Assembly (NCBI GenBank): GCA_947172415.1 | Contig: OX359189.1 | Location: 4,230,501-4,294,500, forward strand | Origin: Chondrosia reniformis | Taxonomy: Eukaryota > Porifera > Demospongiae > Chondrillida > Chondrillidae | Direction of reading: 5' to 3' | Length of the DNA stretch: 64,000 nt | In this document: positions 428 to 58,065 of the stretch, piece by piece | Layout: every line of letters begins with the position of its first letter | Numbering within the stretch: position 1 is the stretch's first letter | Made by a program: the position numbers and the translations under genes | The notes under the pieces: model-generated | Told to the model about the DNA's origin: nothing | The model's input: the letters and a program-made list of their open reading frames with translations, nothing else | Database searches by the model: none

Positions 428-576
428 GCGTACCAAAGACCGTTCCTAGGATAAAAATGGCGGCCGAACTCGATAAAAGTGTCCCCGAAGCCCTACGACT
501 TATCTCCGAGTTAAAATGGCTGGCGATTTCAAACATATAGGCTATGAATATGTAATGAAGACTGTTCCTAGGATAA
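428..576 (+). repeat. Isolated 123-bp satellite fragment, left outer island
   Basis: About 1.2 monomers of the same 123-bp satellite that fills the central region, recognisable by the blocks AAAAATGGCGGCC, CCCCGAAG, TACGAC and GACCGTTCCTAGGATAA. It stands alone inside the minisatellite and is interrupted at 577 by a mobile element. A matching island lies in inverted orientation at 57,873-58,065. Confidence 0.85.
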
Positions 577-968
577 CAAGTAGTTCGAGTTTAAAAACTC
601 GTGGGGCTACTGCCCCACAAATTTACTGAAACTACTTGGCCGCATCGTTGGGCTTTGACATATTACTCTTAATCCTAACGATTGAGGATGCTTAAGTGTC
701 CTAAAAATTATAAATAGCGACAGAAAAGCTTCGTTAACTAAAGCTTCCTGAACGCCACCATTTGCAAAAACGATGTATTGACGTATAAATTAAGTGTTAC
801 AATAGTTGCATATGAACTCATATTATACATCTATCGACGTATAAAATGTGTTATAATAGTTGCGTATGAACTCGTATTATATATATATATGTATATATAT
901 CCGTAACATGAAGCCATACATAAATCGCGTTTTGAAAACAATAGAGGGGGCTTCCTGTGGCAGCCCCT
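577..968 (+). mobile_element. Hairpin-headed non-autonomous element, copy 1 (left arm)
   Basis: This is a 392-bp insertion in the 123-bp satellite. The 'head' at 577-638 folds into a branched hairpin: outer stem CAAGTAGTT (577-585) with AACTACTTG (630-638), an inner hairpin CGAGTTT/AAACTCG (586-601), and a second inner hairpin around GTGGGGC/GCCCCAC (601-618). The body holds a roughly 56-bp tandem duplication (repeats starting at 781 and 837) and a TA microsatellite (about 878-900). The tail ends in a GC-rich inverted repeat (GGGGGCT...AGCCCC, about 946-967). The satellite resumes with AAAAATGG at 969; a total of 7 A against 5 expected fits a 2-bp AA duplication but does not prove one. No coding capacity is seen. 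The class is uncertain; a Helentron/DINE-like element is one possibility because of the terminal hairpin, internal microsatellite and lack of ORF. Confidence 0.7.
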
Positions 969-1010
969 AAAAATGGCTGCCGAACTTTATTAAAGGGTCC
1001 CCTCTTTGTA
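969..1010 (+). repeat. Remainder of the left outer satellite island
   Basis: The 123-bp satellite resumes after the element with AAAAATGGCTGCCGAAC and TTAAAGGGTCCCC, then passes into minisatellite. The same junction, including a shared TTGTATTATTTATA run, is found reverse-complemented near 57,430-57,469, which confirms that the arms are homologous here. Confidence 0.85.
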
Positions 1011-4000
1011 TTATTTATATGTACTAGTTATATTTTTATGTATCAGTTATATGTAGTAGGTGTTTGTACTATTTATATGTACTAGTTACATTTTTATGTA
1101 TTAGTTATATGTAGTAGGTGTGTGTACTAGTTATATGTACTAGTTGTATGATATACTAGTTCTGTGTTCTAGTTGTATGTACTAGTTGAATGGACTAGTT
1201 GTAGGTTCTTGTACTAGTTATACTTGGTACTAGGAAGGTACTTGTTCTATGTACTAGTTGTATGTACTAGTTTTATGAACTAGATGTATGTACTAGTTGC
1301 ACGTACTATTTATAATAATTGGATATATGTGTATGTACTAGTTATATGTAGTAGGTGAATGTACTAGTTGCTTTTACTTGTATGTAGTAGCTATCTACTA
1401 TTTGTACATACAAGTTGTACGTTCTAATATTCTGTACTCGTTCTATGAGCTAGTTGTATATACTAGTTTCTAGTTGTATATACTAGTTGTATGTACTAGG
1501 TGCATGTACTATGTGTATGTACTATTTATAAGCACCAGTTAAATGTGTATGTACTAGTTATATGCTTGTGTACTAGTTATCTCTACTAGTTGTATGCACT
1601 AGCTGTATGCACTAGTTGTATGAACTATTTATAATTTCTAGGTATATGTGTATGTACTAGTCCTTTGTACTAGTTGTATGTACGGCTTATATGTATTTGT
1701 TATATTTGTATGAACTAGATATATGTACTAGTAGATCGTATTATCTATATGTACTATTTATATGTGTATGTACCAGTTATATGTACTAGCTGTATGTACT
1801 TGCTGTATATACTAATTGCATGTACTAGTTGTATGTACTAGTACTCGTTATATTTACTAGTTGTAGGTACTAGGTTTAGGAACTAGTTGTATGTGGTAGT
1901 TGTATGTACTAGATATGAACCAGTTGTATTTACTAGTTGTATGTACTAGTTGTATGTACTAGATATATGTAGTAGTTGTGTGTACTAGTTACATGCACTA
2001 GTTGTATGTATAAGTTGTATGTAGTAGTTGTATGAAGAAGTTTTATGTACTAGATGTATGTCCTAGTTGTAGGTTCTAATACTAGTTATGCTAATTACCA
2101 GGGAAGTACTAGTTTTATGTGCTATATACTAGTTGTCCGTACTAGTTGTGTGTAGTAATTATATGTATTACATGCAAGTAACAGTTGTGGGTAATTGTAT
2201 GTACTATTGTTATGGACTAGTTATGTGTATAAGTACTATTCATATGTAGTAGTTATATGTACTAGTTGAGTGTAATTGTTGTATGTACTGGTTGTATGAA
2301 CTACTTCTCTGAACTCGTTATATTTGTATGTACTAGATGCATGCACTATTTATATGTACTAGATGTAGGTAATAGTTGTATGTACTAGTTGTATGTATGA
2401 GTTGTATGTTTTAAATATAGGTTCAAATACTAGTTTTACTAGGACCTAGGTAGGCACTAGTTGTTTGTACTAGATACTAGTTGTATGTATTAGTTATATG
2501 TACTAGTTATGTGCGAGTTGTATGTATTAGTTGCACGTATATAAGAGTTGTATGTAGTAGCTATCTACTAGTTGTATATACAAGTTGTACATTCTAGTAT
2601 TATGTACTCATTCTATGAAATACTTGTATGTACTAGTTTCTAGTTATATGTAATATTTTTTTGAACTCTTCGTATGTACTATGGGTATGTACTATTCATA
2701 AGTACCAGTTATATGTGTATGTACTAGTTATATGTTTGTGTATTAGTACTGGTTATATATATGTGTACTAGTTATATGTACTAGTTGTATGTACTAGTTG
2801 CATGTACTAGTTGTATGTACTAATTTTATGAACTAGTTGTATACACTAGTTCTATGCACTAGCACTAGTTATATTTACTAATTGTATGTACTAGTTGTGT
2901 GTACTAGATATGAACCAGTTGTATGTACAAGTTTTATCCACTAGGTGTTTGTACTAGCTATATATTAGTTGTATTTATTATTTATATGTACCAGTTGTAT
3001 GCACTAGTTGTATGTACTATGTGTGTACTATTTATGTGTACTAATTCTATGCACTTGATGTATGTACCAGTTGTATATACTAGTTGTAGGTTCCAGTACT
3101 AGTTATACTAGTTACTAGGTAGGTACTAGTTGTTTGTACTATTTATATGTACCAATTGTATGTAGTAGTTATATGTACTAGTTGAATGTAATTGTTGTAT
3201 GTACTAGTTGTATATACTTTTTATAAGCACTAGTTGTATGTACTGGTTGTATGAACTACTTATATGAACTCGTTATATTTGTATGTACTAGATATATGTA
3301 CTAGTTTTATGTACTAGATATATGTAGTAGTTGTATGTACTAGTTATACGTACTAGTTGTACTTACTATTTATATTCACTAAATATATGTGTATGAACTA
3401 GCTGTATGTATATACTGGTTGTATATGCTAATTGCACGTACTAGATGTAAGTACTATTACTATATAGTTATATTTACTAGTTTTAGGTGCTAGTTGTATG
3501 TATTAGTTGTATTTATTAGAAGTATGTACTAGTTATATGTTCAAATTATTAGTTGTATGAACTAGTTATATGTACTAGGTTGTAGTTGTAGGCACTAGTT
3601 TTATGTACTACTTATATGTAATATGCGTATGTACTATTTATATGTACTAGTTAAATTTTTATGTATGAGTTATATGTAGTAGGTGTGTGTACTAGTTATA
3701 CGCACTAGTTGCAAGTACTGGTTGTATTCACTAGTTGTATGGACTAGTACTAGCCATATTTACTAGTTGTAGGTACTAGTTGTATGTGGTAGTTGTATGT
3801 AGTAGTTCTATGTACAAATTGTATGAACTAGTTTTGTGTTCTATTTGTATGTATATACTAGTTGTTTGTACCAGCTTTGTACTAGTTGTATGTTCTAGTT
3901 GTATGTACTAGTTTTATGTACTTGTTGTAGATTCTTGTACATGTTATAATAGGTACTAGGAAGGTACTAGTTGTATGTACTAGAAACTAGTTTTATGTAC

Positions 4001-7000
4001 TAGTTGTATGTACTAGTTTATGAACTAGTTGTATATAGTAGTTGAGTTGTATTTACAATTTGCATGTACTAGTTATATGTTTGTGAACTAGTTATAAGTA
4101 CTAGTTGTATGCACTAGCTGTATGTACTAGGTGTATGCACTAGATATGAATCAGTTGTATGTACAAGTTGTATGTACTAGTTGTATGCACTAGATATGAA
4201 TCAGTTGTATGCACAAGTTGTATATACTAGTTTTATGCTCTAGATGTATGTATTATTTACATGTATTAGTTATATGTAGTAGTTGTGTGGACCAGTTATA
4301 TGTGCTAGTTGTACCTATTGGTTGTATATTCTATTTGTATGCACTATTTGTATGTTCTAGTTTTAGGTTCTAAGACTAGTTATACTATGTACTAGGGAAG
4401 TACTAGTTGTATGTGCTTAATACTAGTTGTACCCACTGGTTGTATGATCTAATTATATGTATTAGATGTATGGACAAGTTGTGGGTAATTGTTGTATGTA
4501 CTAGTTATATGTATTAGTTGTATGTACTAATTGTATGTACTTTACCAGTTGTTTGTACTAGAACTAGTTATATTTACTAGTTTTAGGTACTAATTATATG
4601 TACTTTTTGTATGTGCAAGTAGTATATACAAGTTATGTTTGCTAGTTGTAAGTACTAGTTGAACGTCCTATGTTCTAGTTATAGGCACTATTTTTATGTA
4701 CTAATTATTATGTACTAGTTGCATGTACTAGTTGTATGTATCAGTTTTATGTAGTCCTTCTATGCACTAGTTCTATGTACTTGGTTATTGTACTACTTGT
4801 ATGTTCTAATTGTATGAACTAGTTTTATGTACTAATTGGAAGTACTTTCTAGTACTAGTGATATGAACTAGTGTTAGGACTAGTTGAATGTACTGGTTGT
4901 ATACACTAATTGTGTATACTAGTTGTGTGCACTAGTTGTATGAACTAGTTATATGTACTAGTTGTATGTACTAGTTGTGTTTACTAGTTGTATGTACAAG
5001 TCGTGTGTACTAGTTTTATGTACTAGTAGTGTGTACTCATTGCCACCTGTGTGTACTAGTTTTATGTACTAGTTTATATACTAGTACTAGTCATATTTAC
5101 TAGATGTATGAACTAGTTGAATGTACTAGTTTTATGTGCATGTTCTGGTTATATGTTCTAGTTGTATGTACAAGTTGTATGTACTAGTTGTATGTACTCG
5201 GTGTTTGTACTAGCTATATTTTCTATACATTTTATTAACTAGTTGTATGTACTAGTACTAGTTATATTTACTAGTTGTAGGTACAAATTATATGTACTAA
5301 TATAGGCTGTGTGTACAAGTTATATATATGTGTATGGACTATTTGTATGTACTTGTACTAGTAAGCTTGAATACTAGTTAATCTATTTACTAAGTAGGCA
5401 CTAGTAAAATATAATACTAGTTGGAGTTCTAGTTTAATGTCCTAGTTGTATGTACTATTTACATGTACTAATTTAATGTGTATGTTTCAATCCTAGGTAC
5501 TAGTTGTAAATACAAGTTGTATGAAGTAGTTGTTAGCCAAGTTGTATGTGCTAGTTGTATGTACTAGTTGTTTGTACTAGTTATATGTATTACTTGTTTG
5601 TACTTGTTATACGTACTAGTAGAATGTACTAGTAGTGTGTACTAGTTGTAGGTACTAGTTTTATGTTATAGTTGTATGTACTAGTTGTATGCTCTAGTGG
5701 TATGTACCAGATGCATGTACTATTTATATGGACCAGTTATATGTGAATATACTAGTTATATGTAGTAGTTGGTGTCTACTAGTTTTATGTTATGGTTGTA
5801 TGTACTAGTTGTGTGTACTAGTTGTGTGTACCACTTAAATGTACTAGTTGTATGAACTAGGTATATGTACTTGTTATTAGTTCCATGTACTAGTTGTGGG
5901 CACTAATTTGATGTACTAGTTGTATTTACTAGTTGTATGTACTAATTATATGTACTAGTTGTAGGTTCTGGTATTAGCAAAACTTGTTACTAAGTAGGTA
6001 CTATTTGTATGTACAAATACTAGTTATATGTACTAGTTGTAGGTTCTGGTATTAGCAAAACTAGTTACTAAGTAGGTACTATTTGTATGTACAAGTACTA
6101 GTTATATTAACTAGTTATAGGTACTGGATATATGTACTAGTTGAATGTAATAGTTATATGTACTAATTGCTTATTATAATTCTATATAATAGTTGTATGT
6201 ACTAGTTATGTACTAGTTGTATGAACTAGTTGTATGTAGTAGTTGTTTTAACTAGTGGCGTGTACTTGTACTGGTAATATTTACTAACTGTAGGCACTAG
6301 TTGTTTGTACTAGTTGTACATACTAGGACTAGTTATATTTACCAGTTGTAGGTTATAGTTGGATGTACTAGTTGAATGCAATAGTTGTATGTACTAATTA
6401 TATGTACTAGTTGAATGTACTAGTTGTATGAACTAGTTATGCACTAGTTGTGTGTACAAGTTGCATGTAATAACTGTATGTATTAGTTATGTACTAGTTG
6501 TATGTACTAGTTCTAATAACTAGTTGTAAGTACTAGGTGTATATACTAATTGTATGTAGTAGTTGTATGTAGCAGTTGTACGTCTAGTTGTATGAACAAG
6601 TTGTATGTACTAGTACTAATTATATTCAGTAGTTGAATTAGTTGGAGGTCTAGTTTGATGTACTAGTTGTATGTACTGTTTATATGTACCAGTTATATGT
6701 GAATGTTCTAGTCATAAGTACTAATTGTAAGTACAAATTGTAAGAACTAGTTTTTACTACTAATTGTATGTGCAAGTAGTATGAACTAGTTGTATATACT
6801 AGTTGTTTGTACTAGTTGTACGTACTGGTTGTATGTACTAGTTGTATGTACTAGGTGTATGTAGTAGTTGTATGTACTAGTTATGTACTAGTTATATGAA
6901 CTAGTTTTGTGCCCTAATTGAATGTACTACTTGTATGTACTAGTTGTATGTACTATTTGTATGTCCTAGTTGTATGTACTAGGTCTATGTACTAGTTGCA

Positions 7001-10000
7001 AGTACTAATTATATATAATAATTGTATGTACCATTTTTATGTACTAGTTATGTACTAGCTGTATGTACTGGCTGTATGTACTAGTAGTATTAACTAGTGG
7101 TATGTACTAGTACTGGTAATATTTACTAACTGTAGGCACTAGTTGTATGTACTAGTTGTACGTACTAGGTGTATGAACTATTTATGTGTACTAGTTGTAA
7201 GTTCTAGTAGTAGTAACACTAGATACTAAGTAGGTATTAGTTGTATGTACAAGTTCTAGTTATATTAACTATTTGTAGGTACTAGTTATATGTACTGGTT
7301 GAATGTTATAGTTGCATGTACTAATTCTATATTATAATTGTATGTACCAGTTGTATGTACTAGTTATGTCATAGCTGTATGTACTAGTTGTATGTACTAG
7401 TAGTATTAACTTGTGGTATGTACTAGTACTGGTAATATTTACTAACTGTAGGCACTAGTTGCACTGGTTTTATTTACTAGTTGTAGGTACTAGTTGCATG
7501 GACTTGTTGAATGTTATAGTTGTATGTACTAATTGTATGTACTAGTTGTATGTACTAGTTGTAAGAACTAGTTATGTACTAGTTGTAGGTAGTAGTTGTA
7601 TTAACTACTTGTATGTAATAATACTGGTGATATTTACTAGTTGGATATACTAGTTGTAAGTACCAGTTGTATGTACTAGTAGAAGTTATGTTTACTAGTT
7701 GTAGGTATTAGTAGCATTTACTAGTTGTATGGAGTAGTTGTATGTTCTAATTGTATGAACTAGTTGTATGTACCACTTGTATGGACTAGTTATATACTAG
7801 GTGTATGTACTTGTTGTGTGTACTAGTAGTATGTACTAGTTGTATGTACTAGGTGTATGTACTAGTTATGTGTACTAGTTGTAGGCAATAGTACTAGTAA
7901 TACTAGATAATAAGTAGGTATTAGTTTAATGTACAAGTACTAGTTATATTAAATATTTGTAGGTACTACTTATATGTACTAGTCGAATGTAATAGTTGCA
8001 TGTACTAATTGTATATAATAGTTGTATGTACCATTTGTATGTACTAGTTATGTACTAGGTGTATGTAATAGTAGTATGTTCTAGTAGGATTAACTAGTGG
8101 AATGTACTAGTACTTGTAATATATACTAACTGTAGGCACTAGTTGTGTGTACTAGTTGAATGTAATAGTTGTATGAACTAGTTGTATGTAGTAGTACAAG
8201 TAATATTTACTACTTGTAGGTATTAGTTGTATGTCCTAGTGTATGTAGTAGTTGTATGTTTAATTGTATGAACTAGTTTTATGTACTAGTTGTATGTTCT
8301 AGTTATATACTAATGTATGTACTAGTTGTATATATGTACTAGTTGTACGTACTAGCACTGGTTATATTTACTATTTTGTAGGTATTAGTTGTATGTACTA
8401 GTTGTATGTAGTAGTTGTATGGTCTAATTGTATGAACTAGTTTTATGTACTAGTTGTATATACTAGTTATATACTAGTTGTATGTACTAGTTGTGTGTAC
8501 TAGTTGTATGTACTAATAGTTTGTACTAGTTAATTACTAGTTATATGTATAGTTTTATGTACTATTTCTGTGTACTAGTTGTAGGTACTACTTGTATATA
8601 CTACTCGTATGTATTAGTTGTATATACTAGTATATGTACTACTTGTAGATTTTACTACTAGTTATACTAGGTACTAGGTAGGTGCTAGTTGTATCTACTA
8701 GCACTAGTTATGTTTACAAGTTGTACGTACTAGGTGCATGTACTTGTTGAATGTTATAGTTGCATGCACTAATTGTATGTACTAGTTGTATGTACTAGTT
8801 GTGTGTAATTGTTGTATGTACTAGTTCAATGTAGAAGTACTAGCTATATTAACTTGTTGTAGGTACTAGTTTTATGTACCAGTTGTAATACTAGTTGTAT
8901 GTTCTAGTTTTATGCACTATATAGTTGTATCTACTAGTTGTATTTACTAATTGTATGTAGTAGTTTTATGTACTACTTGTAAGAAATAGTTGTATGTATA
9001 TATTAGTTGTAGGTACTAATTGTATATCCTAGTTGTATGTACTAGTTTTATGTACTAGTACTAGTTATATTTACTAGTTGTAAGTATATACTAGTTGTAC
9101 GTACTCAATTGTTTGTAGTAGTTGTATGCACTAATTGCATGGACTAGTTTTATGTACTAGTTGTGTGTAATTGTTGTATGTACTAGTCCTATGCACTGGT
9201 TGTATGTAAAAGTACTAGTTATATTAACTAGTTGTAGGTACTAGTTATATGTACTAGTTGAATGTAATAGTTTCCTGTACTAATTGTATATAATAGTTGT
9301 ATGTACCAGTTGTATGCACTAGTTATGCAGTAGTTGTGTGTACTAGTTGTATGTACTAGTAGGAATAACTAGAGGTATGTACTAGTACCAGTAATATTTA
9401 CAAACTGTAGGCACTAGTTGTATGAACTAGTTGTATGTAGTAGTTGTATGTTCTAACTTAATGAACTAGTTTTATGTACTAGTTGTATGTACTAGTTATA
9501 TACTAGTTGCAGGTATTACTTGTATGTACTAATGGTATGTACTAGTTGTGTGTACTAGTGGTATGTAATAACTGTATGTATTAGTTATGTACTAGTTGCA
9601 GGTACTTGTTCTAATAACTTGTTGTTTGTACTAGTACTGGTAATATTTACTAGTTGTAGGTACTAGTTTTATGCACTAGTTGTATGTACTAGTACATGGT
9701 ATATTTACTAATTATAGGTATTAGTTTTATGTAGTATTTCTGTGTACTAGTTGTATATACTAGTTTCATGTACTACTTGTATGTACTAGTTTTATGGACT
9801 AATTGTATGTACTAATTGTATGTACTATTTATAGGTGCCAGTTTTATGTGTATGTACTAGTTATATGTAGTAGTTGGGTACTAGTTATAGGTACTAGTTG
9901 TAAGTTCTAGTACTAGTAAAACTAGGTACTAAGTAGGTACTAGTTATATGTACTAATTGCTTATACTAGTTGTATGTGCTAGTTGCGTACCAGTTGTATG

Positions 10001-10354
10001 TACAAGTTGTATGTGCTAGTTGGATGAACTAATTGTATGTACTAGTACAAGTTATATTTAATAGTTATATATACTAGTTGTATGCACTAGTACCAGTTAT
10101 ATATATTAGTTATATTTACTAGTTATATTTACTAGTTGTTTGTATTGGTTGTTTGTACTAGTTGTATGCACTAGTTGTATGTATTAGATGTATGTACTTT
10201 TTATGTATTAGGTATAGTAGTTATTTGTACTAGTTATATGTACTAGTTGTATGTAACAGTTATATGTGCTAGAAACTAGTTGTATGTATTAGTTGTATTT
10301 ACTAGTTGTATGTACTAGTTTTATGTGCTATACTAGTTATATTTACTAGTTGTT
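1011..10354 (+). repeat. 13-bp minisatellite, left arm, main block
   Basis: About 9.3 kb of degenerate GTATGTACTAGTT repeats, frequently carrying ACTAGT. A recurrent larger pattern has a TTATATTTACTAGTTGTAGG segment and a GTAGGTTCTAGTACTAG segment followed by TACTAGGTAGG. A local 78-bp (6 x 13) duplication is visible at about 5,961-6,116. Nothing gene-like was found in this stretch; stop codons are dense in all frames because TAG and TAA are built into the repeat. Confidence 0.93.
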
Positions 10355-11017: not shown

Positions 11018-11320
11018 CAAACCATTAGAAATGATTAGCACACATGATTTCAGAAAAGAAGAGGCAACCATACGCAACTACAATTTACTGGATTAGATAT
11101 ATGCTCAATTTCTTACTATTGTGATCTGCCGTGACATGCCTAAGAGGATCCAGACACTAATCCAAAAAGCTAAGTGTACCAGATTTTATCGAGCTAACAA
11201 ATTTTGAGGCTAGAATCTGACATTGTTTTTATATTTACATAAACTTATCCAACTATAAATCTATTATCTATATATAGTCATATTATTGTACAATTATCTT
11301 ATTATAATAAAATGGTTAAC
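11018..11320 (+). pseudogene. Decayed gene-like fragment, left copy
   Basis: A non-repetitive segment that is the inverted counterpart of 44,815-45,084. Read in the frame that is open in the right copy, it keeps recognisable peptide blocks (HDFRKEEATIRNYN, TLIQKAKCTR), but has a stop in place of a glutamate (GATTAGATA against GATGAGATG) and a second stop at AATTTTGAG. It also carries about 30 extra bases (around 11,210-11,240) absent from the right copy. I do not recognise the protein family. It may be a captured exon, a transposon remnant or non-coding sequence with a chance frame. Confidence 0.55.
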
Positions 11321-11322
11321 TA

Positions 11323-12091
11323 CAGTGGAACCTCCTATAACGGACTGCCTGAATAGCGGAAACCTCTCTACTACAGACATTTTTCTGTGGCCCGAATAGT
11401 TGTCATAGGATTCCATACTTACGTAACCTCCGAATAACGAAATCTCTATATCCCGTATAACGAACGCTAAAGAAATGATATAGCCCCAATAAAACCTCTA
11501 TGAAACGGAAAAGATGTAAAATCGTATTAAAATGAATTATATAAAGATAGATCGCACGACTCCGCGCTAACTCGGCGTCAAAGTGCCCACTGTTAACATC
11601 CTTCCTGTGACGATCTAGACTCATTTAGTGCCGCGGCCGTCTAGCCTTGTGGACCACACCCCTGAAAGGTTCGAAGAACTGCCAGGGGTCTGGTTCACGT
11701 TCACAAGACTAGACGCCGTCATGCCTCCTTTTTCAATTTGGCATTACTGGGACGCGAACGAAACTAGGTATTGGATGTAGTTACCACTTTTTGTATTAAC
11801 AGTAGTAAAAGTCAAACAAGTTTGGACACTATTTTTTGGCAGGATCTAACCTTCTTTGGTATCTTGTTTTCTTTAGCATAACACTATATACTATATTATT
11901 GTAGTAACTGTTACAATAGTTTTGGTTTATCATTATAGCCTTTATAAACTGTCATTTTGGTTTAGTGTTAATCATATATATTCATATTTATATATTCATT
12001 GACTTCAATGAAAACCTCTGAATAGTGGAAACCTCTGTATAACATCCATTCTTTCAGTTCCCAAAGTGTCCGTTGTAGAGAGGTTCCACTG
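11323..12091 (+). mobile_element. Pogo/Tigger-like non-autonomous DNA transposon, 769 bp, TA target site
   Basis: Terminal inverted repeats start CAGTGGAACCTC at 11,323 and end GAGGTTCCACTG at 12,091, with AACGGAC matched further in (about 24 bp in all). TA dinucleotides flank it at 11,321-11,322 and 12,092-12,093. Sub-terminal copies of an AACCTCT...AACGGA-like motif recur inside both ends (e.g. near 11,355, 11,445 and 12,015), as is common in pogo-related elements. The opposite arm at about 44,811-44,820 has the unoccupied sequence GGTTAACTAGTTGT (as complement), giving a direct empty site with one TA. A 73-codon minus-strand frame at 11,403-11,624 has no visible transposase motif, so the element looks non-autonomous. 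An imperfect 76-bp hairpin lies at 11,639-11,714. The family assignment rests on TIR sequence and TA duplication only; strand is arbitrary. Confidence 0.85.
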
Positions 12092-12093
12092 TA

Positions 12094-44677: not shown

Positions 44678-44814
44678 ACACAACTACTACATACAACTAG
44701 TACATACAACTAGTACTACAACTAGTACTACAACTAGGACATACAACTAGTACACACAACTATATAGTACTACTACTAGTACACACAACTATTACATACA
44801 ACTAGTTAACCATT
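44678..44814 (-). repeat. 13-bp minisatellite, right arm, block next to the satellite
   Basis: Short ACTAGTACATACA repeats between the right satellite array and the gene-like fragment. It mirrors 12,094-12,227. Positions 44,813-44,814 are the unoccupied TA that corresponds to the pogo-like insertion in the other arm. Confidence 0.88.
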
Positions 44815-45084
44815 TTATTATAATACGATAATTATACAATAATATGACTCTATATATATAATAGATTTATAGTTGGATAAGTTTATGTCCCAGAATTTGT
44901 TACCTCGATGATGTCTGGTACACTTAGCTTTTTGGATTAGTGTCTGGATCCCCTTAGGTATGTCACGGCAGATCGCAGTAGTGACAAATTGAGCATACAT
45001 CTCATCCAGTAGATTGTAGTTGCGTATGGTTGCTTCTTCTTTTCTGAAATCATGTGAGCTAATCGTTTCTAATCGTTTGTACAT
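44815..45084 (-). CDS. Unrecognised 88-codon open frame, right copy of the gene-like fragment
   Basis: An open frame on the minus strand (44,818-45,084). Its ATG lies in flanking minisatellite, so it is probably not a native start. The sequence-specific part begins RLETISSHDFRKEEATIRN and continues with a Cys-containing stretch (TTAICRDIPKG), a basic segment (QKAKCTRHHRGNKFWD) and a hydrophobic Ile/Tyr-rich end. No domain, signal peptide or convincing family match is recognised. The left-arm copy has two stops in this frame but no frameshift over about 60 codons. It could be a captured exon or the remains of a mobile-element protein. I doubt it is a functional gene in this setting. Confidence 0.3.
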
Positions 45085-46329: not shown

Positions 46330-46623
46330 GGGGGTGCTTATGGTCTAGAGCAAAGACACAAGATTCAAGATCCAGTGATTATGGGATGTCCATAGTTCTA
46401 GCCCAGGCCATGGCAGCAGATTTTCAGTGATTTTTATTGACAAGCACCCCTTGACAACAAACACTGCCCACTGATCGAACAGATTACTGACCAATTTAAT
46501 GACTGATTTACTGTATGGGGGTTTATATATATGTTGTATGTACTGGTACTGGCCTCCCTGAAAAGTAGTCCACTGGACTACGTGGAGTTCCAGTCTAATA
46601 ATTCAATTCAATTCAAAATTCAG
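46330..46623 (+). mobile_element. tRNA-Leu-type SINE with short-repeat 3' tail
   Basis: This is an island of about 294 bp of unique sequence inside minisatellite. The first 75 or so bases resemble a tRNA-Leu: an A-box-like TGGTCTAGAGC at about 46,341, an anticodon-arm-like GATTCAAGATC in its normal place, and a B-box-like AGTTCTAGCCC at about 46,394-46,404. A body of about 150 bp follows, then a 7-bp-stem hairpin, GTAGTCC-ACT-GGACTAC (46,565-46,581), and a tail of repeated ATTCA units. The B box differs from consensus and the 3' part is not tRNA-like, so this is a SINE, not a tRNA gene. Target-site duplication cannot be seen in the repetitive flanks. It is absent from the left arm. Confidence 0.7.
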
Positions 46624-48057
46624 ACATACAACTAGTGCATACAACTGGTACATGCAACTATTTTATATAATTAGTACATGCAACTATTACATTCAACTAG
46701 TACATATAACTAGTACCTACAACTAGTTAATATAACTAGTACTTGTACATACAACTAATGCCTACTTAGTATCTAGTATTATTACTACTAGAACTTACAA
46801 CTAGTACACATAACTAGTACATACACCTAGTACATACAACTAGTATATACAAATAGTACATACAACTAGTACATACAAGTAGTATATACATTCATCTAGG
46901 ACATAAAACTAGTTCATATAACAAGTACATAACTAGTTCATACAATTATGACATAGAACTAGTTCAAACAATTAGAATATACCACTACTACATACACCTA
47001 TTACATACAATTATTACATACAAATAGTACATACAACTAGTACACACAACTAGACTATCCAACTATTAACTAGTACATACATCTAGTACATACAAATAGG
47101 ACATAAGAATTGTACTTAAAACTAATAAATATAACTAGAACATACAACTAGTACAACAACTAGTACATACAATTAGTATAAATAACTAGTACATAAACCT
47201 AGTACATACAAGTGGTACATATAAATGGTTCATATACCTGCTATATACAACAAGTACATACAACTAGTACCTACAACCAGTACATATAACTGGAACGCGT
47301 ACAAAACACTAGTACATACAACTACTACTATCAACAAGTAACAAGTACATACAACTAATACATTGAACTAGTACGCACAACATGTACATACTAGTAGTAC
47401 ATTCAACTAGAACATGCAAGTTGTACATACAATTAGTACATAAAACTAATCCATACAATTAGTACACACAACTAGTACTTAAAACTAGTTCATATAACTA
47501 GTTACATAACATTAGTACATAGTTCAAACAATTAGAACATACAACTAATACCTATAATTAGTAAATATAGCTTGTACTAGTACATACACCTAGTGAATAA
47601 AACTGGTACCTACAACTAGTTCATACAACTAGTACATACAACTAGATATTAGCACATACAACTAGTACATACAACTAGTACCTACAACTAGTACATATAA
47701 CTAGTACACACAGCTAGTACATAGAACTAGTACGTATAACTAGTACATACAACAATTACACACAACCAGTACATACAACTAGAACATACAATTAGTACAA
47801 ACATCTAGTTACTAGTACATACAACTAGTTCATAAAACTAGTACCTACAAGTATTAAATTTAACTAGTATACTAAAAATACACACAAGTAGAACAAGGAA
47901 GAAGTATATATAACTACATAAAACTAGTACATACAGCTATTACATACAACCAGTTACTAGTACATACAACTAGTACATACAACTAGTACATATAACTAAT
48001 ACATATAACTAATACATACAACAATTTCACACAATTAGTACATACAAATAGTACATA
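46624..48057 (-). repeat. 13-bp minisatellite, right arm
   Basis: ACTAGTACATACA-type repeats between the SINE and the foldback element. No gene is seen. Confidence 0.92.
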
Positions 48058-48242
48058 TAGAGAACAATAACAAGTTTCTACAAAAATAGTGAAGATGTAG
48101 GGATGGTACAAAAAGCATAGAAACTAGAAAGGGATGTTACACAGTGAAGCATTAGCTATATATGCATGAATCATACAACACCCTTGCTTGTAGGCTTCCC
48201 TACATCTTCACTATTTTTGTAGAAAAGTTTTATTGTTCTCTA
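48058..48242. mobile_element. Foldback element with 46-bp inverted repeats
   Basis: Positions 48,058-48,103 and 48,197-48,242 are inverted copies (43 of 46 bases matching by eye), both containing CTACAAAAATAGTGAAGATG as read from their outer ends. They enclose a loop of about 93 bp. The whole can form a long hairpin and resembles a MITE or foldback transposon. Target-site duplication is not evident. It directly adjoins the unique island to its right, so it may be one end of a larger insertion. Confidence 0.65.
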
Positions 48243-48324
48243 GTTTCTGTTCTTTGTAATGGAGCATAAGCTAGGAATTTGTTGTATTTTAAACCACTTT
48301 GGTTTTGCAATCTTCGACTGATTA

Positions 48325-48332
48325 TGACGTCA
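48325..48332. promoter_or_regulatory. Perfect CRE/ATF-type octamer TGACGTCA
   Basis: The octamer matches the cAMP-response-element consensus exactly. It is a single occurrence in the unique island, with no gene start identified nearby, so function is unproven; one such 8-mer can occur by chance. Confidence 0.3.
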
Positions 48333-48423
48333 TTAAAATGGCAAATTAATTGAGGTCTTGACTCTGGAGGTATGAAAACTATCATACCCAATAATAGTGT
48401 TATCGCTTTCGCGTTACAACGGG

Positions 48424-48486
48424 CGAAGAAGATGAAGATGAAGAATATGAAGAAGATGAAGAAGATGAAGAAGAAAATGAAAATGG
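48424..48486 (+). repeat. GAAGAT-rich microsatellite
   Basis: Imperfect GAA/GAT triplet run of about 63 bp. It gives an acidic Glu/Asp peptide in one + frame and a Phe/Ile/Leu run on the other strand, which explains the open frames here. Confidence 0.85.
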
Positions 48487-48672
48487 GAGATTTCAAAGTT
48501 CGTTCATTTGCCGACGATACACGGTCGCTTGCTTTCAAGGCCAATTTATAGCATGGCTGTTCTATATTTAACTCTACATAGTCTCGTTTCAGCGATGTTC
48601 AGCCTAATTCGGAAATTTGCTCCTATACCAATGTGTGGGGAAAACGAAACAACCCGCACAATCCCTACATAG

Positions 48673-48690
48673 AGAGTACTACAGTACTCT
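48673..48690. other. Palindrome AGAGTACT-AC-AGTACTCT at the edge of the unique island
   Basis: A perfect 8-bp inverted repeat with a 2-base spacer, placed just before minisatellite resumes. It may mark the right end of the inserted segment that starts at 48,058. Confidence 0.5.
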
Positions 48691-48700
48691 TTGATATACA

Positions 48701-51700
48701 ACAAGTATATAAAACTAGTACATAAAACTAGCATTTTAACTAGTAATTACAGCTAATACATAGAAATAGTACATACAACAAGAACATATAACTAGTACAA
48801 ACAGCAAGTACACACAACTAGTACATATAACTAGAACATGCAACAATATCACACAACTAGTACATACAACTAGAACATATAATTACTTACAACTAGTACA
48901 TACAACTAGTACATAAAACTAGTTTATACAACTATTACATATAACTAGTACCTGCAACTACTTACTCGTACATACAATTAATACATACAATAAGTACATA
49001 CAACTAGTACATACAGTTAGTACATACAACTAGAACATACAACTAGTACATACAACTAGTACATACAACTAGTAAATACAATTAGTACATACATCTAGTT
49101 ACTAGTACATACAACTAGTAAATAAAACTAGTAACTACAACTAGTAAATTTAACTAGTAAACAAAAATACACACAACTAGTACTTACAAGTAGTATATAT
49201 AACTATGTACAACTAGTACAAACAGCTATTACAAACAACATGTTACTAGGACATACTACTAGTACATACAACTGGTACATACAACTAGTACATATAATTA
49301 GTACATACAACTAATAGATACAACTAGTACATATAACTGGTACATATAACTAGTCCATGCAACTACTTACATCCAGCTAGTACATACAACTAGTACATAT
49401 AACTAGTACATACAGCAATTTCACACAGTTAGTAAATAAAACTAGTATATATAACTAGTTACTAGTATATAGAACTAGTACATACAACTAGTACATACAA
49501 CTAGTACTAACAACCAGTACATATAACTAGTACATATAGCAAGTTCATACAACTTCTTCATATAAGTTCATACAACTTCTTCATATAACTAGAACATACA
49601 ACAATTTCACACAACTAGTACCTACAACTAGTACATAAACTTACTTCCAACTAGTACATACACCTAGTACATTCAACTAGTTCATACAACAATAACATCT
49701 AACTAGTACCTGCAACTACTTACTAGTATATACAACTAGTGCATACAGTTAGTATATATAACTATTACACATATACAACTAGTACATACAACTAGGACAC
49801 ACAAATAGTACATACATCTAGTTACTAGTACATACAACTAGTACATAAAACTAGTAACTACAACTAGTAAATTTAACTAGTAAACAAAAAATATAGTACA
49901 TACAAGTAGTATATATAACTATGTACAACTAGTACAAACAGCTATTACAAACAACATGTTACTAGGACATACTACTAGGACATACAACTGGTACATACAA
50001 CTAATACATATAATTAGTACACACAATTAATAGATACAACTAGTACATATAAGTAGTACACAGCTAGTACATAAAACTAGTATATATAACTAGTAAATAG
50101 TATATCCAACTAGTACATACGACTTATACATACAACTAGTAACCACAACTAGTAAATTCAACTGGTATACAAAAAATACACAACAACTAGGACCTACATG
50201 TAGTATATGTAACTACATACAACTATTACATACAGCTATTACAAACAACTTGTTACTAGTACATACTACTAGTACACACGGCTAGTGCATACAACTAGTA
50301 CATATAACTAGTACATATAACTAGTACAAGCAACAATTTCACACACCTACTACATACAACTAGTACATATAACTACTGCCTAGTATATAGAACTAGGACA
50401 TACAACTAGTGCATTCAACTAGGACATATAATTAGTACATACAGCTAGTTACTAGTACATACAACTAGTACATTAAACTAGTAACTACAACTAATAAATT
50501 TAACTAGTAAACAAAAAATACACACAACTAGTACTTACAAATAGTATATATAACTACATACAACTAATACATACAGGTATTACAAACAACATGTAACTAG
50601 TACATACAACTAGTACATATAACTAGTACATACAGCTAGTACTTACAACTAGTACTTGCGACTAGTACATATAACTAGTACATATAACTAGTACATACAA
50701 CAATTTCACACAACTAGTACATACAACTAGTATATATAACTAGTTACTAGTATATAGAACTAGTACACACAACTAGTACATACAACTAGTACTAACAACC
50801 AGTAAATATAACTAGTACATATAGCAAGTTCATACAACTTCTTCATATAACTAGAACATACAACAATTTCACACAACTAGTATATACAACTAGTACATTC
50901 AACTAGTTCATACAACAATAACATCTAAAAAGTACCTGCAACTACTTACTAGTACATATAACTAATACATACAATTAGTACATACAACTAGTACATACAG
51001 TTAGTATACATAACTATTACATACAACTAGTACATACAACTAGGACATACAAATAGTACACATATCTAGTTACTAGTACATACAACTAGCACATAAAACT
51101 AGTAACTACAACTAGTATATTTAACTAGTAAACAAAAAATACACAAAACTAGTACATACAAGTAGTATATATAACTATGTACAACTAGTACAAACAGCTA
51201 TTACAAACAACATGTTACTAGTACATACAACTAGTACATACAACTGGTACATACAACCAGTACATATAATTAGTACATACAATTAATAGATACAACTAGT
51301 ACATATAACTAGTACATACAATAATTTCACAAACTAGTACATTAAAGTAGTACACATAATAATTACTGGTACATACTACTAGGACATACAACTGGTACAT
51401 ACAACTAGTACATATAATTACTTCCAACTTGTACATACACCTAGTACATACAACTAGTTCATACAACTATAATCATTTAACTAGTACCTGCAACTACTTA
51501 CTAGTACATACAACTAATACCTACAATTAGTACACACAACTAGTACATACAGTTAGTATATATAACTACATACAACTAGTAGATACAGCTATTACAAACA
51601 ACTTGTTACTAGTACAGACTATTAGTACATACAGCCAGTACTTACAACTAGTACATACAACTAGTACATATAACTAGTTATTAGTATATAGAACTAGGAC

Positions 51701-54700
51701 ATAAAACTATATAGTGCATTAAACTAGTACATACAACTAGTACTAACAACCAGTACATATAACTAGTACATACAGCAAGTTCATACAAATTGTTCATATA
51801 ACTAGAACATACAACAATTTCACACAACTAGTACATACAACTAGGACATACAATTAGTACATACATCTAGTTACTAGTACATACAACTAGTACATAAAAC
51901 TAGTAACTACCACTAGTATATTTAACTAGTAAACAAAAAATACATACAACTATAACACACAAGTAGTATATATAACTATGTACAACTAGTACATACAGCT
52001 ATTACAAACAACATGTTACTAGTACATAATACTAGTACATACAACTGGTACATACAACTAGTACATATAATTAGTACATACAATTAATAGATACAACTAG
52101 TACATATAACTGGTGCATATAACTAGTACATACAATAATTTCACAAAACTAGTACATAACACTAGTACATATAATGATTACTAGTATATAGAACTAGGAC
52201 ATACTACTAGTGCATAAAACTAGTAACTACAACTAGTAAATTTAATTAGTATACAAACAACTTGTTACTGGTTCATCCTACTAGTACATACAACTGGTAC
52301 ATACAACTAGTACATATAATTACTTCCAACTTGTACATACACTTAGTACATACAACTAGTTCATACAACTATAATCATCTAACCAGTACCTGCAACTACT
52401 TACTAGTACATACAACTAATACCTACAATTAGTACATACAACTAGTACATACAGTTAGTATATATAGCCAGTACATACAACTAGTACATACAGCTAGTAT
52501 ATACAACTAGTACATAAAACTAGTAACTACCGCTAGTATATTTAACTAGTAACCAAAAAATACATACAACTATAACACACGAGTAGTATATATAACTATG
52601 TACAACTAGTACATACAGCTATTACAAACAACATGTAACTAGTACATACAACTACTACATATAACTAGTACATACAGCTAGTACTTACAACTAGTACCTG
52701 CGACTAGTACATATAACTAGTACATATAACTAGTACATACAACAATTTCACACAACTAGTACATACAACTAGTATATATAACTAGTTACTAGTATATAGA
52801 ACTAGTACACACAACTAGTACATACAACTAGTACTAACAACCAGTAAATATAACTAGTACATATAGCAAGTTCATACAACTTCTTCATATAACTAGAACA
52901 TACAACAATTTCACACAACTAGTATATACAACTAGTACATTCAACTAGTTCATACAACAATAACATCTAAAAAGTACCTGCAACTACTTACTAGTACATC
53001 CAACTAATACATACAATTAGTACATACAACTAGTGCATACAGTTAGTATACATAACTATTACATACAACTAGTACATACAACTAGGACATACAAATAGTA
53101 CACATATCTAGTTACTAGTACATACAACTAGCACATAAAACTAGTAACTACAACTAGTAAATTTAACTAGTAAACAAAAAATACACAAAACTAGTGCATA
53201 CAAGTAGTATATATAACTATGTACAACTAGTACAAACAGCTATTACAAACAACATGTTACTAGTACATACAACTAGTACATACAACTGGTACATACAACT
53301 AGTACATATAATTAGTACATACAATTAATAGATACAACTAGTACATATAACTAGTACATACAATAATTTCACAAACTAGTACATTAAAGTAGTACACATA
53401 ATAATTACTGGTACATACTACTAGGACATACAACTGGTACATACAACTAGTACATATAATAACTTCCAACTTGTACATACACCTAGTACATACAACTAGT
53501 TCATACAACTATAATCATTTAACTAGTACCTGCAACTACTTACTAGTACATACAACTAATACCTACAATTAGTACACACAACTAGTACATACAGTTAGTA
53601 TATATAACTACATACAACTAGTAGATACAGCTATTACAAACAACTTGTTACTAGTACAGACTACTAGTACATACAGCCAGTACTTACAACTAGTACATAC
53701 AACTAGTACATAAAGCTTGTACATACAACAATTTCACACCACTAGTACATACAACTAGTACATATAACTAGTTACTAATATATAGAATTAGGACATACAA
53801 CTAGTACATATAACTAGTTACTAATATATAGAATTAGGACATAAAACTATATAGTGCATTCAACTAGTACATACAACTAGTACTAACAACCAGTACATAT
53901 AACTAGTACATACAGCGAGTTCATACAAATTGTTTATATAACTAGAACATACAACAATTTCACACAACTAGTACATACAACTAGGACATACAATTAGTAC
54001 ATACATCTAGTTACTAGTACATACAACTAGTACATAAAACTAGTAACTACCACTAGTATATTTAACTAGTAAACAAAAAATACATACAACTATAACACAC
54101 AAGTAGTATATATAACTATGTACAACTAGTACATACAGCTATTACAAACAACATGTTACTAGTACATAATACTAGTACATACAACTGGTACATACAACTA
54201 GTACATATAATTAGTACATACAATTAATAGATACAACTAGTACATATAACTGGTGCATATAACTAGTACATACAATAATTTCACAAAACTAGTACATAAA
54301 ACTAGTACATATAATGATTACTAGTATATAGAACTAGGACATACTACTAGTGCATAAAACTAGTAACTACAACTAGTAAATTTAACTAGTATACAAACAA
54401 CTTGTTACTGGTTCATCCTACTAGTACATACAACTGGTACATACAACTAGTACATATAATTACTTCCAACTTGTACATACACCTAGTACATACAACTAGT
54501 TCATACAACTATAATCATCTAACCAGTACCTGCAACTACTTACTAGTACATACAACTAATACCTACAATTAGTACATACAACTAGTACATACAGTTAGTA
54601 TATATAGCCAGTACATACAACTAGTACATACAGCTAGTATATACAACTAGTACATATAACTAGTACATAAACTACTACATACAACAATTTCACACAACTA

Positions 54701-56614
54701 GTACATACAACTAGTAACTATAACTAGTTACTAGTATATAGAACTAGGACATAAAACTAGTGCATTCAACTAGGACATACAATTAATACATACATCTAGT
54801 AACCAGGACATACAACTAGGACATAAAACTAGTAACTACAAGTAAATTTAACTGGTATACAAAAAATACACACAAATAGAACATACAAGTAGTATATATA
54901 ACTACATACAACTAGTATATACAGCTATTACAAACAACTTGTTACTAGTACACACTACTAGTACATACAGCTAGTACTTACAACTAGAACATATAATTAG
55001 TACATAAAACTAGTACATACAACAATTTCACACAACTAGTACATATAACTAGTTACTAGTATATAGAACTAGGACATAAAACTAGTGCATTCAACTAGTA
55101 CATACAGCTATTACAAACAACATGTTACTAGTACATAATACTAGTACATACAACTGGTACATACAACTAGTACATATAATTAGTACATACAATTAATAGA
55201 TACAACTAGTACATATAACTGGTGCATATAACTAGTACATACAATAATTTCACAAAACTAGTACATAAAACTAGTACATATAATGATAACTAGTATATAG
55301 AACTAGGACATACTACTAGTGCATAAAACTAGTAACTACAACTAGTAAATTTAACTAGTATACAAACAACTTGTTACTGGTTCATCCTACTAGTACATAC
55401 AACTGGTACATACAACTAGTACATATAATTATTTCCAACTTGTACATACACCTAGTACATACAAATAGTTCATACAACTATAATCATCTAACCAGTACCT
55501 GCAACTACTTACTAGTACATACAATAAATACCTACAATTAGTACATACAACTAGTACATACAGTTAGTATATATAGCCAGTACATACAACTAGTACATAC
55601 AGCTAGTATATACAACTAGTACATATAACTAGTACATAAACTACTACATACAACAATTTCACACAACTAGTACATACAACTAGTAACTATAACTAGTTAC
55701 TAGTATATAGAACTAGGACATAAAACTAGTGCATTCAACTAGTACATACAATTAATACATACATCTAGTAACCAGGACATACAACTAGGACATAAAACTA
55801 GTAACTACAAGTAAATTTAACTGGTATACAAAAAATACACACAACTAGAACATACAAGTAGTATATATAACTACATACAACTAGTACATACAGCTATTAC
55901 AAACAACTTGTTACTAGTACACACTACTAGTACATACAGCTAGTACTTACAACTAGAACATATAACTAGTACATAAAACTAGTACATAAAACAATTTCAC
56001 ACAACTAGTACATATAACTAGTTACTAGTATACAGAACTAGGACATAAAACTAGTACATATAATGATTACTAGTATATAGAACGAGGACATACTACTAGT
56101 GCATAAAACTAGTAACTACAACTAGTAAATTTAACTAGTATACAAACAACTTGTTACTGGTTCATCCTACTAGTACATACAACTGGTACATACAACTAGT
56201 ACATATAATTACTTCCAACTTGTACATACACCTAGTACATACAACTAGTTCATACAACTATAATCATCTAACCAGTACCTGCAACTACTTACTAGTACAT
56301 ACAATAAATACCTACAATTAGTACATACAACTAGTACATACAGTTAGTATATATAGCCAGTACATACAACTAGTACATACAGCTAGTATATACAACTAGT
56401 ACATATAACTAGTACATAAACTACAACATACAACAATTTCACACAACTAGTACATACAACTAGTAACTATAACTAGTTACTAGTATATAGAACTAGGACA
56501 TAAAACTAGTGCATTCAACTAGTACATACAATTTGTACATACAACTAGTAACTAGGACATACAACTAGTACATAGAACTAGTAACTACAACTAGTAAATT
56601 AACTTGTATACAAA
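48701..56614 (-). repeat. 13-bp minisatellite, right arm, main block with large duplications
   Basis: About 7.9 kb of ACTAGTACATACA-type repeats. Variant markers such as ACAATTTCACACAACTAG, CAACTTGTTACTGG and ACCTGCAACTACTTACTAG recur in fixed order, showing that blocks of many units were duplicated together. No gene is seen. Confidence 0.93.
50591..54780 (-). repeat. About 2,042-bp higher-order tandem duplication in the minisatellite, with shorter follow-on copies
   Basis: Three separate markers repeat at an offset of 2,042 bp: ATGTAACTAG at 50,591 and 52,633, CTTCATATAA at 50,841 and 52,883, and AACTAGTACC at 51,479 and 53,521. A later marker (AACCAGTACC) recurs at 52,381, 54,521, 55,490 and 56,270, with steps of 2,140, 969 and 780, so shorter copies follow to about 56,570. 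Confidence 0.82.
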
Positions 56615-56704
56615 CAAGTATTTCGAGTTTAAAAACTCGTGGGGCTCCCGCCCCCCGAATTAACTCGAACTACTTGGCCGTATCGTTGAGATTTAATATA
56701 TATA
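56615..56704 (+). mobile_element. Hairpin-headed element, copy 4, head only (truncated)
   Basis: Begins CAAGTATTTCGAG and keeps the full branched head: CGAGTTTAAAAACTCG, then GGGGCTCCCGCCCC, then AACTCGAACTACTTGG. The body stops after a TTTAATATATA run and minisatellite resumes. The outer stem is longer than in copy 1. Confidence 0.7.
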
Positions 56705-57445
56705 GTAAATATAACTAGTACTAGTAAATAAAACTAGTTCATGCAACTAGTACATCAAAATACTACACACCACTAATACATACAACTAGTACATACTACT
56801 AGTACAAACAACTAGGACATAAAACTAGTACATCCACCTACTACATATGACTAGTACATACACATATACCTAGAAATTATAAATAGTGCATACAACTAGT
56901 AGAGATAACTAGTACACAAGCATATAACTAGTACATACACATATAACTGATGCTTATAAATAGTACATACACATAGTACATGCACCTAGTACATACAATT
57001 AGTACATACAACTAGAAACTAGGATAAACAAGTAGCTCATAGAACGAGTACATAATACTAGAACGTACAACTTGTAAATACAAGTAGTACATAGCTACTA
57101 CATACAAGTAAAAGCAACTAGGGCATATAACTAGTACATTCACCTACTACATATAACTAGTACATACACATATATCCAATTAATATAAATAGTACGTGCA
57201 ACTAGTACATACACCTAGTTCATAAAACTAGTACATACAATTAGTACATACAACAAGTACCTTCCTAGTACCAAGTATAACTAGTACAAGAACCTACAAC
57301 TAGTACATTCAACTAGTACATTCAACTAGAATATACAACTAGTTTATACATACAACTAGGACATATAACTAGTATATACACACACCTACTACATATAACT
57401 AATACATAAAAATATAACTAGTACATATAAATAATACAAACAGGG
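56705..57445 (-). repeat. 13-bp minisatellite, right arm
   Basis: ACTAGTACATACA-type repeats between two hairpin-headed elements. The last bases (TATAAATAATACAAACAGGG) complement the left-arm junction near 1,010. No gene is seen. Confidence 0.9.
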
Positions 57446-57469
57446 GGACCCTTTAATAAAGTTCGGCAG
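57446..57469 (-). repeat. Short satellite piece, right outer island
   Basis: GACCCTTTAATAAAGTTCGG, the complement of the satellite piece at 979-1,010 in the left arm, directly joined to the hairpin-headed element. Confidence 0.8.
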
Positions 57470-57519
57470 CCCCCTCTATTGTTTTCATAACACGATTTAT
57501 GTATTTCTTCATGATACGG

Positions 57520-57562
<43 letters not shown>

Positions 57563-57872
57563 AGTATATATATAATACGAGTTCATAGGCAACTATTATA
57601 ACACATTTTATACGTCGATAGATGTATAATATGAGTTCATACGCAACTATTGTAACACTTAATTTATACGTCAATACATCGATTTTGCAAATGGTGGCGT
57701 TCAGGTAGCTTTAGTTAACGAAGCTTTTCTGTCGCTATTCATTATTTTTAGGACACTTAAGCGTCCTCAATCGTTAGGATTAAGAGTAATATGTCAAAGC
57801 CCAATGATGCGGCCAAGTAGTTCGAGTAAATTCGGGGGGCAGCAGCCCGAGTTTTTAAACTCGAATTACTTG
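57470..57872 (-). mobile_element. Hairpin-headed element, copy 2 (right-arm counterpart of copy 1)
   Basis: A 403-bp inverted counterpart of 577-968, in the same satellite position (head joined to TTATCCTAGGAAC at 57,873). The head at 57,814-57,872 has a stronger outer stem than copy 1 (CAAGTAGTTCGAGT with ACTCGAATTACTTG, one mismatch). The roughly 56-bp internal duplication is retained and the TA microsatellite is longer (about 57,519-57,578). About 26 bp that form the GC-rich tail hairpin and first satellite bases of copy 1 are missing, apparently deleted between short GGCT repeats. A 73-codon minus-strand frame here is low-complexity Tyr/Ile from the TA run and is not a gene. Confidence 0.75.
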
Positions 57873-58065
57873 TTATCCTAGGAACAGTCTTCGGTACAGA
57901 TTCATAGCCTATATGTTTGAAATCGGCAGCCATTTTAACTCGGAGATAAGTCGTAGATCTTTGGGGACACTTTTATCGAGTTCGGCGGCCTATTTTATCC
58001 TAGGAACGGTCTTTGGTACCCTTTCAGAGCCCATATTTTCGAAATTTGTAGATTTTAACTCAGAG
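57873..58065 (-). repeat. Isolated 123-bp satellite fragment, right outer island
   Basis: About 1.6 diverged satellite monomers (TTATCCTAGGAACAGTCTTC, CATAGCC, GGCAGCCATTTTAACTCGG), the inverted counterpart of 428-576. It passes into minisatellite at about 58,066. Confidence 0.85.

Follow-up and report, generated by a model that had tools for sequence, protein, structure and literature searches.

The satellite arrays of Tribolium are the nearest relatives of the design that we describe here in the sponge Chondrosia reniformis, at a locus contained in a 64,000-nucleotide stretch of chromosome 1 (the window, C1:4,230,501-4,294,500). Judged from its sequence, this locus is very probably (roughly 85%) the regional centromere of chromosome 1 and one instance of a cassette that is present on nearly all 14 chromosomes. 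The Tribolium account, in the part of it used here, likewise describes satellite arrays whose inverted halves measure from kilobases up to tens of kilobases and whose inversion sites are conserved, in the presumed centromeric regions of all chromosomes, and it gives such macro-dyad symmetries as documented in Tribolium only (PMC13081366). The same part of that account reports thousands of inversion sites across multi-megabase regions in T. madens (PMC13081366), whereas the sponge has one switch per chromosome (9 of the 9 chromosomes read, with 4 more inferred and C3 not among them), a distinct core satellite, ordered outer elements and a polarity of its two halves, which we call A and B.

Candida tropicalis resembles the sponge in another way, as every chromosome has a core between inverted repeats that are homogenised across chromosomes, and placing one flank in direct orientation on the plasmid pCEN801 abolished CENP-A binding, according to the sections drawn on here (PMC4741521). 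These sections describe a non-repetitive core, whereas both core and arms are satellites in the sponge, and they give 97% homology for the repeats of one centromere against 92% between centromeres, naming the regional centromeres of Schizosaccharomyces pombe alongside (PMC4741521). Sponge chromosomes C1 and C12 show the reverse of the Candida likeness, and C4 follows the Candida pattern. The S. pombe centromere is like the sponge locus in having a central core with inner and outer inverted repeats, and unlike it in that there is no satellite core, the central cores are heterogeneous and the organism is a fungus. In primate alpha-satellite, as in the sponge, uniform repeats occupy the middle and older ones are displaced outwards on both sides, and the animal and plant arrays in the consulted part of the same review run head-to-tail (PMC8997354), whereas orientation in the sponge turns over at the core.

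The core satellite and its inward-pointing arms

The genome comprises 117,379,552 bases in 15 contigs, of which 14 are the chromosomes C1 to C14; C15 contains cox1, which reads without stops under translation table 4. A tunicate origin, which 14 chromosomes and a similar genome size would also suit, was rejected because, when compared with known cox1, this one has Arg and Ile at sites where table 13 would give Gly and Met. The surroundings of the core were read directly on nine of the 14 chromosomes (C1, C2, C4, C8, C9, C10, C11, C12 and C14). Three chromosomes, C1, C12 and C4, were analysed over longer stretches, with C1 also examined over 124 kb (4,200,501-4,324,500).

The window begins with a 13-bp minisatellite and continues with a 123-bp satellite, both on the forward strand, followed by a core of 145-bp satellite and then by the 123-bp satellite and the minisatellite again, both on the reverse strand. 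This order was obtained with Tandem Repeats Finder (TRF), a 16-mer dot-plot and a k-mer map, and it bears out the original prediction, made from the letters of the window, that the repeats lie in mirrored order and opposite orientation. In the self dot-plot the left and right 123-bp arms have 0 direct 16-mers in common, and between two 2-kb bins the inverted pairs number as many as 5,278. The centre of the mirror had been put at about 34,985; the inversion does lie within the core, and the core scan moves it to 34,976.

The 145-bp satellite extends over 1.8 kb on C1, with a single inversion switch, and over 1.6-2.3 kb across the nine chromosomes read. It occupies one locus on each of C1-C14 and is found nowhere else in the genome, nor on C15 (14 of 14 candidates scored, 47 rows), which is the distribution expected of regional centromeres, with every chromosome having a single one. 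It lies at 0.375-0.551 of chromosome length, corresponding to arm ratios of 1.03-1.66, where the core positions on C3, C5, C6, C7 and C13 are approximate and the lengths of C3, C6 and C13 are rounded values from PMC12181767.

A strand-aware monomer model was needed for the core because the 145-bp unit is nearly its own reverse complement; the consensus was built from 107 monomers, after 12 partial ones of 119 had been dropped. Aligned to its reverse complement the unit matches at 103 of 143 positions, and its dyad score of 86 is reached by none of 1,000 shuffles, the maximum among them being 45. The 123-bp unit has no dyad symmetry in the same shuffle test. The DNA fold z is -5.6 for the 145-bp unit and -7.1 for the switch region, compared with +1.6 for the 123-bp unit. 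The core consensus also contains a perfect 19-bp inverted repeat (GGCCAGTAAGGCCGTTAAG and its complement), and at the positions of a putative core hairpin 88.6% of cells pair versus 32-57% in slid versions. A relationship between the 145-bp and 123-bp units was considered and rejected, with only short local matches found and 8 of 500 shuffles equally good.

On all nine chromosomes read, the core monomers turn once from forward to reverse, with zero informative scan windows of the wrong sign. The switch site can be aligned among these chromosomes when C2, C10 and C11 are reverse-complemented to put the long run first, and all nine have the inverted subarrays and the conserved inversion site of a macro-dyad. 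Among the matches listed, C5, C6, C7 and C13 have one switch in their better core matches. The core is bordered by two types of edge, one on the long side and one on the short side. The short-side edge was recovered at 87% identity or more over at least 165 of 171 bases on eight chromosomes, with four more full-length rows at 74-77%. For the long-side edge, 10 chromosomes gave 13 rows that cover no fewer than 97 of the 101 bases, and each of the 13 is directed into the core.

The 123-bp satellite is aimed inwards on both sides of the core on each of the nine chromosomes read. The strand of its monomer flips once per chromosome with zero exceptions (691 of 691 matches covering at least 100 model positions, 37 shorter ones of 728 having been dropped), and on C1 the scan gives 172 forward monomers followed by 75 reverse. 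An exact 28-mer of this satellite, selected for its presence on both strands of C1, C12 and C4, has 86 matches genome-wide, 82 of them up to 50 kb from a core and without exception pointing inwards, and four farther away; its reversed control pattern has 0 matches genome-wide. When the three chromosomes used for the selection are excluded, 62 of 62 matches, on ten chromosomes, point inwards. A core between inverted repeats, which is the fission-yeast-like geometry, can thus be recognised on 12 of the 14 chromosomes (the nine read, and C5, C6 and C7 by the exact 28-mer), with C13 having one side and C3 not among them. In addition, the divergence of a monomer from its five nearest neighbours on the same chromosome rises away from the switch in all six arms of C1, C12 and C4, with rank correlations of 0.46-0.81, a gradient that may be inflated by array-end monomers having fewer like-aged neighbours. 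These six arms are then tandem satellites with the youngest copies in the middle.

These findings bear on the possibility that pericentric repeats have gathered passively in a recombination-poor zone, with the kinetochore elsewhere nearby, for example in the minisatellite zone. The placement of CENP-A on the core is drawn from sequence, the zone of the minisatellite is much broader (its exact 37-mers span 0.86 Mb on C1), and there are islands of the arm satellite that have no core, all of which could suit such an explanation. However, passive accumulation does not predict a single core per chromosome, one conserved switch, conserved edges or the youngest copies next to the core, and we regard it as unlikely.

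Boundary elements and the A and B halves

On 13 chromosomes, all except C3, a boundary element is found at the arm ends. Compared with the left element of the window, those up to 50 kb from a core form an A class with 97-100% identity on C1, C7, C10, C12, C13 and C14 and a B class with 83-84% identity, one each on 13 chromosomes, C3 excepted. Nine elements compared directly gave 98-100% identity between A elements, 97-99% between B elements and 83-85% between the classes. The A element of C1 is 98-99% identical to those of C7, C10, C12 and C14 and matches the B elements of C1, C12 and C4 at 83-85%, and for the B element of C1 the identity is 99% with that of C12 and 97% with that of C4. Of the 22 elements that lie up to 50 kb from a core, 21 have the expected orientation, the exception being one of the three near the core of C7, which is oppositely oriented. 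Partial boundary matches were also seen off-core as inverted pairs separated by about 21 and 24 kb, at C2:5,393,269-5,414,547 and C13:3,384,694-3,408,441.

Boundary elements stand on both sides of the core on C1, C5, C7, C9, C10, C12, C13 and C14. If those of C5 and C9 are taken as A, an A element faces a B element across the core on all eight, and otherwise on six of the eight; C2, C4, C6, C8 and C11 have a single element, which is always B. The long core run lies on the A side, or away from B, on nine of nine chromosomes (C1, C2, C7, C8, C9, C10, C11, C12 and C14), with the side judged by run length for C8 and C12. We had also considered that the core flips through inter-arm recombination, as chromosomes differ in whether the long run is on the left or the right, and dropped this because the assembly strand is arbitrary and the edge types and A/B sides travel together.

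The outer repeats follow the mirror as well. The 760-bp dispersed repeat (45 rows) has full-length copies at 99% beside the A boundary on C5, C7 and C12, is interrupted on C10, C13 and C14, and elsewhere is mostly more diverged. The 392-bp repeat, in 42 rows from 40 scored of 1,363 candidates, is mirror-consistent in all 19 cases that lie up to 100 kb from a core (on C1, C5, C10, C12 and C13). Over the 124 kb of C1 the minisatellite, with at most one mismatch, has 768 forward and 0 reverse matches to the left of the core and 1,056 reverse and 0 forward to the right; C12 has 417 forward and 426 reverse with zero exceptions to the mirror. An exact 37-mer of the minisatellite has 881 matches genome-wide, of which 100 were examined and counted by hand, those of C1 and C2 completely. 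All 20 rows on C1 are in 3.82-4.68 Mb of 10.4 Mb, and up to 250 kb from the core the matches are mirror-consistent in 9 of 9 cases on C1 and 14 of 16 on C2, with mixed orientations farther out.

The original prediction went further and explained the window as a palindrome from 428 to 58,065 that arose by inverted duplication of a whole domain and contains paired single-copy landmarks. The landmarks do pair in inverted orientation, 11,018-11,320 with 44,815-45,084 at 243 of 293 positions (82.9%) and 577-968 with 57,470-57,872 at 351 of 406 (86.5%). They are not single-copy: the first matches 43 times genome-wide, with 22 of these matches no more than 50 kb from a core, and the second is the 392-bp repeat with its many candidates. 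Nor does the palindrome end at those two positions, as the minisatellite mirror persists across all 124 kb examined.

If a composite repeat domain on C1 had been duplicated locally in inverted orientation, this would account for the mirrored order, for inverted landmarks at 83-87% and, on C4, for arms that are most alike mutually. Against it, the other chromosomes read have the identical one-switch design, and each side of C1 matches its namesake on C12 and not the other side of C1. In the outer 14 kb the A sides of C1 and C12 have 74% of 31-mers in common and their B sides 63%, versus 4% for A and B of the same chromosome, and in the satellite arms the values are 40% for A and 27% for B, versus 6-8% between the two arms of the same chromosome. 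The Candida-type likeness, by which the arms of one centromere are most alike, is thus reversed on these two chromosomes. Mirror collinearity, taken as the rank correlation of mirrored best matches, is missing on C1 and C12 (-0.20 to 0.08), with a weak trend on C4 (0.22 and 0.40), and the closest relative of a monomer within its chromosome belongs to its own arm in 234 of 247 cases on C1, 196 of 217 on C12 and 74 of 102 on C4. As stated, the duplication is unsupported by these data and we consider it very improbable.

By these sequence comparisons the two halves did not arise as a local inverted duplication, the sides of C1 and C12 being nearer to their namesakes than to their partners, with C4 excepted. 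Since the left side of C1 resembles the left side of C12 and not its own right side, the mirrored design is older than the C1 locus and genome-wide. The A-A and B-B likeness of C1 and C12 also suggests that centromeres copy or exchange sequence in register, each side with its namesake.

Table 1. Repeats and junctions of the C. reniformis window (position 1 is its first letter)
Feature	Position	Strand	Remarks
13-bp minisatellite, left pericentric array	1..10330	+	Unit ACTAGTTGTATGT; extends left past the window; TRF
Dispersed 392-bp repeat inside minisatellite	577..968	+	
A-type boundary element, minisatellite/123-bp array junction	11018..11320	+	
760-bp dispersed repeat adjoining A boundary element	11321..12080	+	
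Left (A) arm, 123-bp satellite, 246-bp dimer period	12230..33400	+	TRF, monomer scan
Long-side core edge, 123-bp/145-bp satellite junction	33375..33475	+	
Forward run of core, dyad-symmetric 145-bp satellite	33415..34976	+	10 full copies in scan
Core inverted run, including short-side edge	34976..35176	-	One full 145-bp copy past the switch
Right (B) arm, 123-bp satellite	35154..44665	-	TRF, k-mer map, monomer scan
B-type boundary element	44805..45079	-	
13-bp minisatellite, right pericentric array	45079..64000	-	Extends right past the window; TRF, k-mer map
Right copy of dispersed 392-bp repeat	57470..57872	-	86.5% identical, inverted

The window contains no open reading frame (ORF) of at least 110 amino acids, introns being left out of account. 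ARAGORN calls a tRNA-Ile (anticodon TAT) at 48855-48949 on the reverse strand, in the right minisatellite, which is probably spurious because the stretch is partly minisatellite sequence. Also within the minisatellite, a 46-nt inverted repeat with 93% complementarity and a 93-nt spacer at 48058-48242 is possibly a small foldback element.

Weighing the centromere reading

Several observations weigh against the centromere reading, and the most serious concern single chromosomes. On C3 the core at 3,688,291-3,689,586 has monomers of mixed orientation, the better-scoring ones among the matches listed running > > < > > > <, which makes three switches, and it has neither an exact arm 28-mer within 50 kb nor a row of the boundary element near it. 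The centromere of C3 may, to go by these sequences, be divergent, decayed or displaced. On C4 the minisatellite blocks occur in both orientations on each side and the core edges are of other types. The arms of C4 have 15% of 31-mers in common mutually, versus 6-11% with other chromosomes, and its inner monomers differ by 0.074 across the core versus 0.119 to other chromosomes; among eight others only C8 leans the same way (0.113 vs 0.120). The left outer zone of C4 is closer to B (11%) than to A (1%). The likeness of the C4 arms would fit a more local process.

Other difficulties lie in the details of the cassette. The long-side edge is found at both ends of the core on C5, C8 and C13, and placements of the C13 switch conflict (near 3,157,310, versus forward matches up to 3,157,640). 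The boundary elements of C9 (87%) and C5 (89%) are intermediate between the A and B classes; they were taken as A because that of C9 is full length and that of C5 is adjoined by the 760-bp repeat. Furthermore, arm satellite without a core exists at C3:2,569,753-2,570,270, C8:2,580,363-2,585,357, C8:2,736,270-2,740,093, C10:3,328,386-3,332,112 and C12:3,087,526-3,089,313. Some such coreless islands of exact satellite matches also carry a boundary element, and they are possibly relics of earlier arms or centromeres.

A core hairpin is not supported by covariation, with 0 pairs from RNAalifold and double changes at 7 pairs vs 11.7 in shuffles, and since covariation is not seen the symmetry of the core may represent paired protein sites, not a hairpin. 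For the CENP-B box there are 0 exact copies in the four regions searched. With one mismatch the counts in these regions, against means of five shuffles, are 1 vs 14.8, 1 vs 0.4, 5 vs 3.6 and 0 vs 0, and with two mismatches the two arms give 136 vs 115 and 68 vs 41. The Pfam family CENP-C_C gave no match, a result that is uninformative given that it has no eukaryotic control and split exons are invisible to it.

Another kind of site that occurs once per chromosome, such as a meiotic pairing centre, would also explain the single copy and the sides common to C1 and C12. The central position, the satellite-rich and ORF-poor setting and the age gradient are, however, typical of centromeres, and we know of no pairing centre in sponges; the chance of such a site seems to us slighter still than that of the duplication. 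An assembly fold-back or mis-join is the least credible explanation of all, since, hard as repeats are to assemble in an assembly described as 42 contigs in 14 scaffolds, a fold-back predicts near-identical arms, whereas here the landmarks differ by 13-17% and the left and right arm monomers by a mean of 15% (about 10% had been predicted) and the arm lengths are unequal, the window contains zero N, the switch sequence recurs on nine chromosomes, and HiFi reads averaging about 12.9 kb (10.31 Gb in 0.80 million reads, from the data given in PMC12181767) are sufficient for the core and its flanks. The original prediction was right in this respect: the mirrored compound locus is genuine, recurring on other chromosomes with arms of their own.

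We return to the locus as a regional centromere. The core would carry CENP-A chromatin and the kinetochore, the latter on about 11-16 nucleosome-length repeats (core length over 145), with the arms as inner and the minisatellite as outer pericentric chromatin. New satellite copies would arise beside the core and displace older ones outwards. By analogy with C. tropicalis, the mirrored geometry could be kept because both flanks must show the kinetochore equal polarity. The cassette, which runs from the A boundary through inward-pointing satellite, the dyad core with its one switch and the second satellite arm to the B boundary, would be homogenised as non-homologous chromosomes exchange or copy it in register, A sides with A sides and B sides with B sides.

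A stronger claim is that this is a sequence-specified animal centromere, a polar cassette whose inverted geometry is under selection and whose A and B halves are separate lineages passing between non-homologous chromosomes. We rate this lower because on C4 the likeness between the two arms exceeds their likeness to other chromosomes, and put it forward tentatively, at somewhat less than an even chance.

What a sponge centromere would mean

No description of a sponge centromere was found in the open-licence literature of PubMed Central, judged by titles and the openings of abstracts, which is weak evidence; two sponge genome papers mention 'centromer' once each, in passing. In the main text of PMC12181767 neither 'centromer' nor 'satellite' occurs. 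If the centromere reading is true, it would give Porifera their first described centromere, to judge by the literature found, with a fission-yeast-like geometry made of satellites. The usual picture of animal satellite centromeres is one of head-to-tail arrays that are set epigenetically. An early-branching animal group would then allow testing whether repeat orientation and dyad symmetry help specify animal centromeres. A core of 1.6-2.3 kb fits within single HiFi reads, which would make the sponge an unusually tractable system, and the A and B halves would be a record of exchange among non-homologous centromeres.

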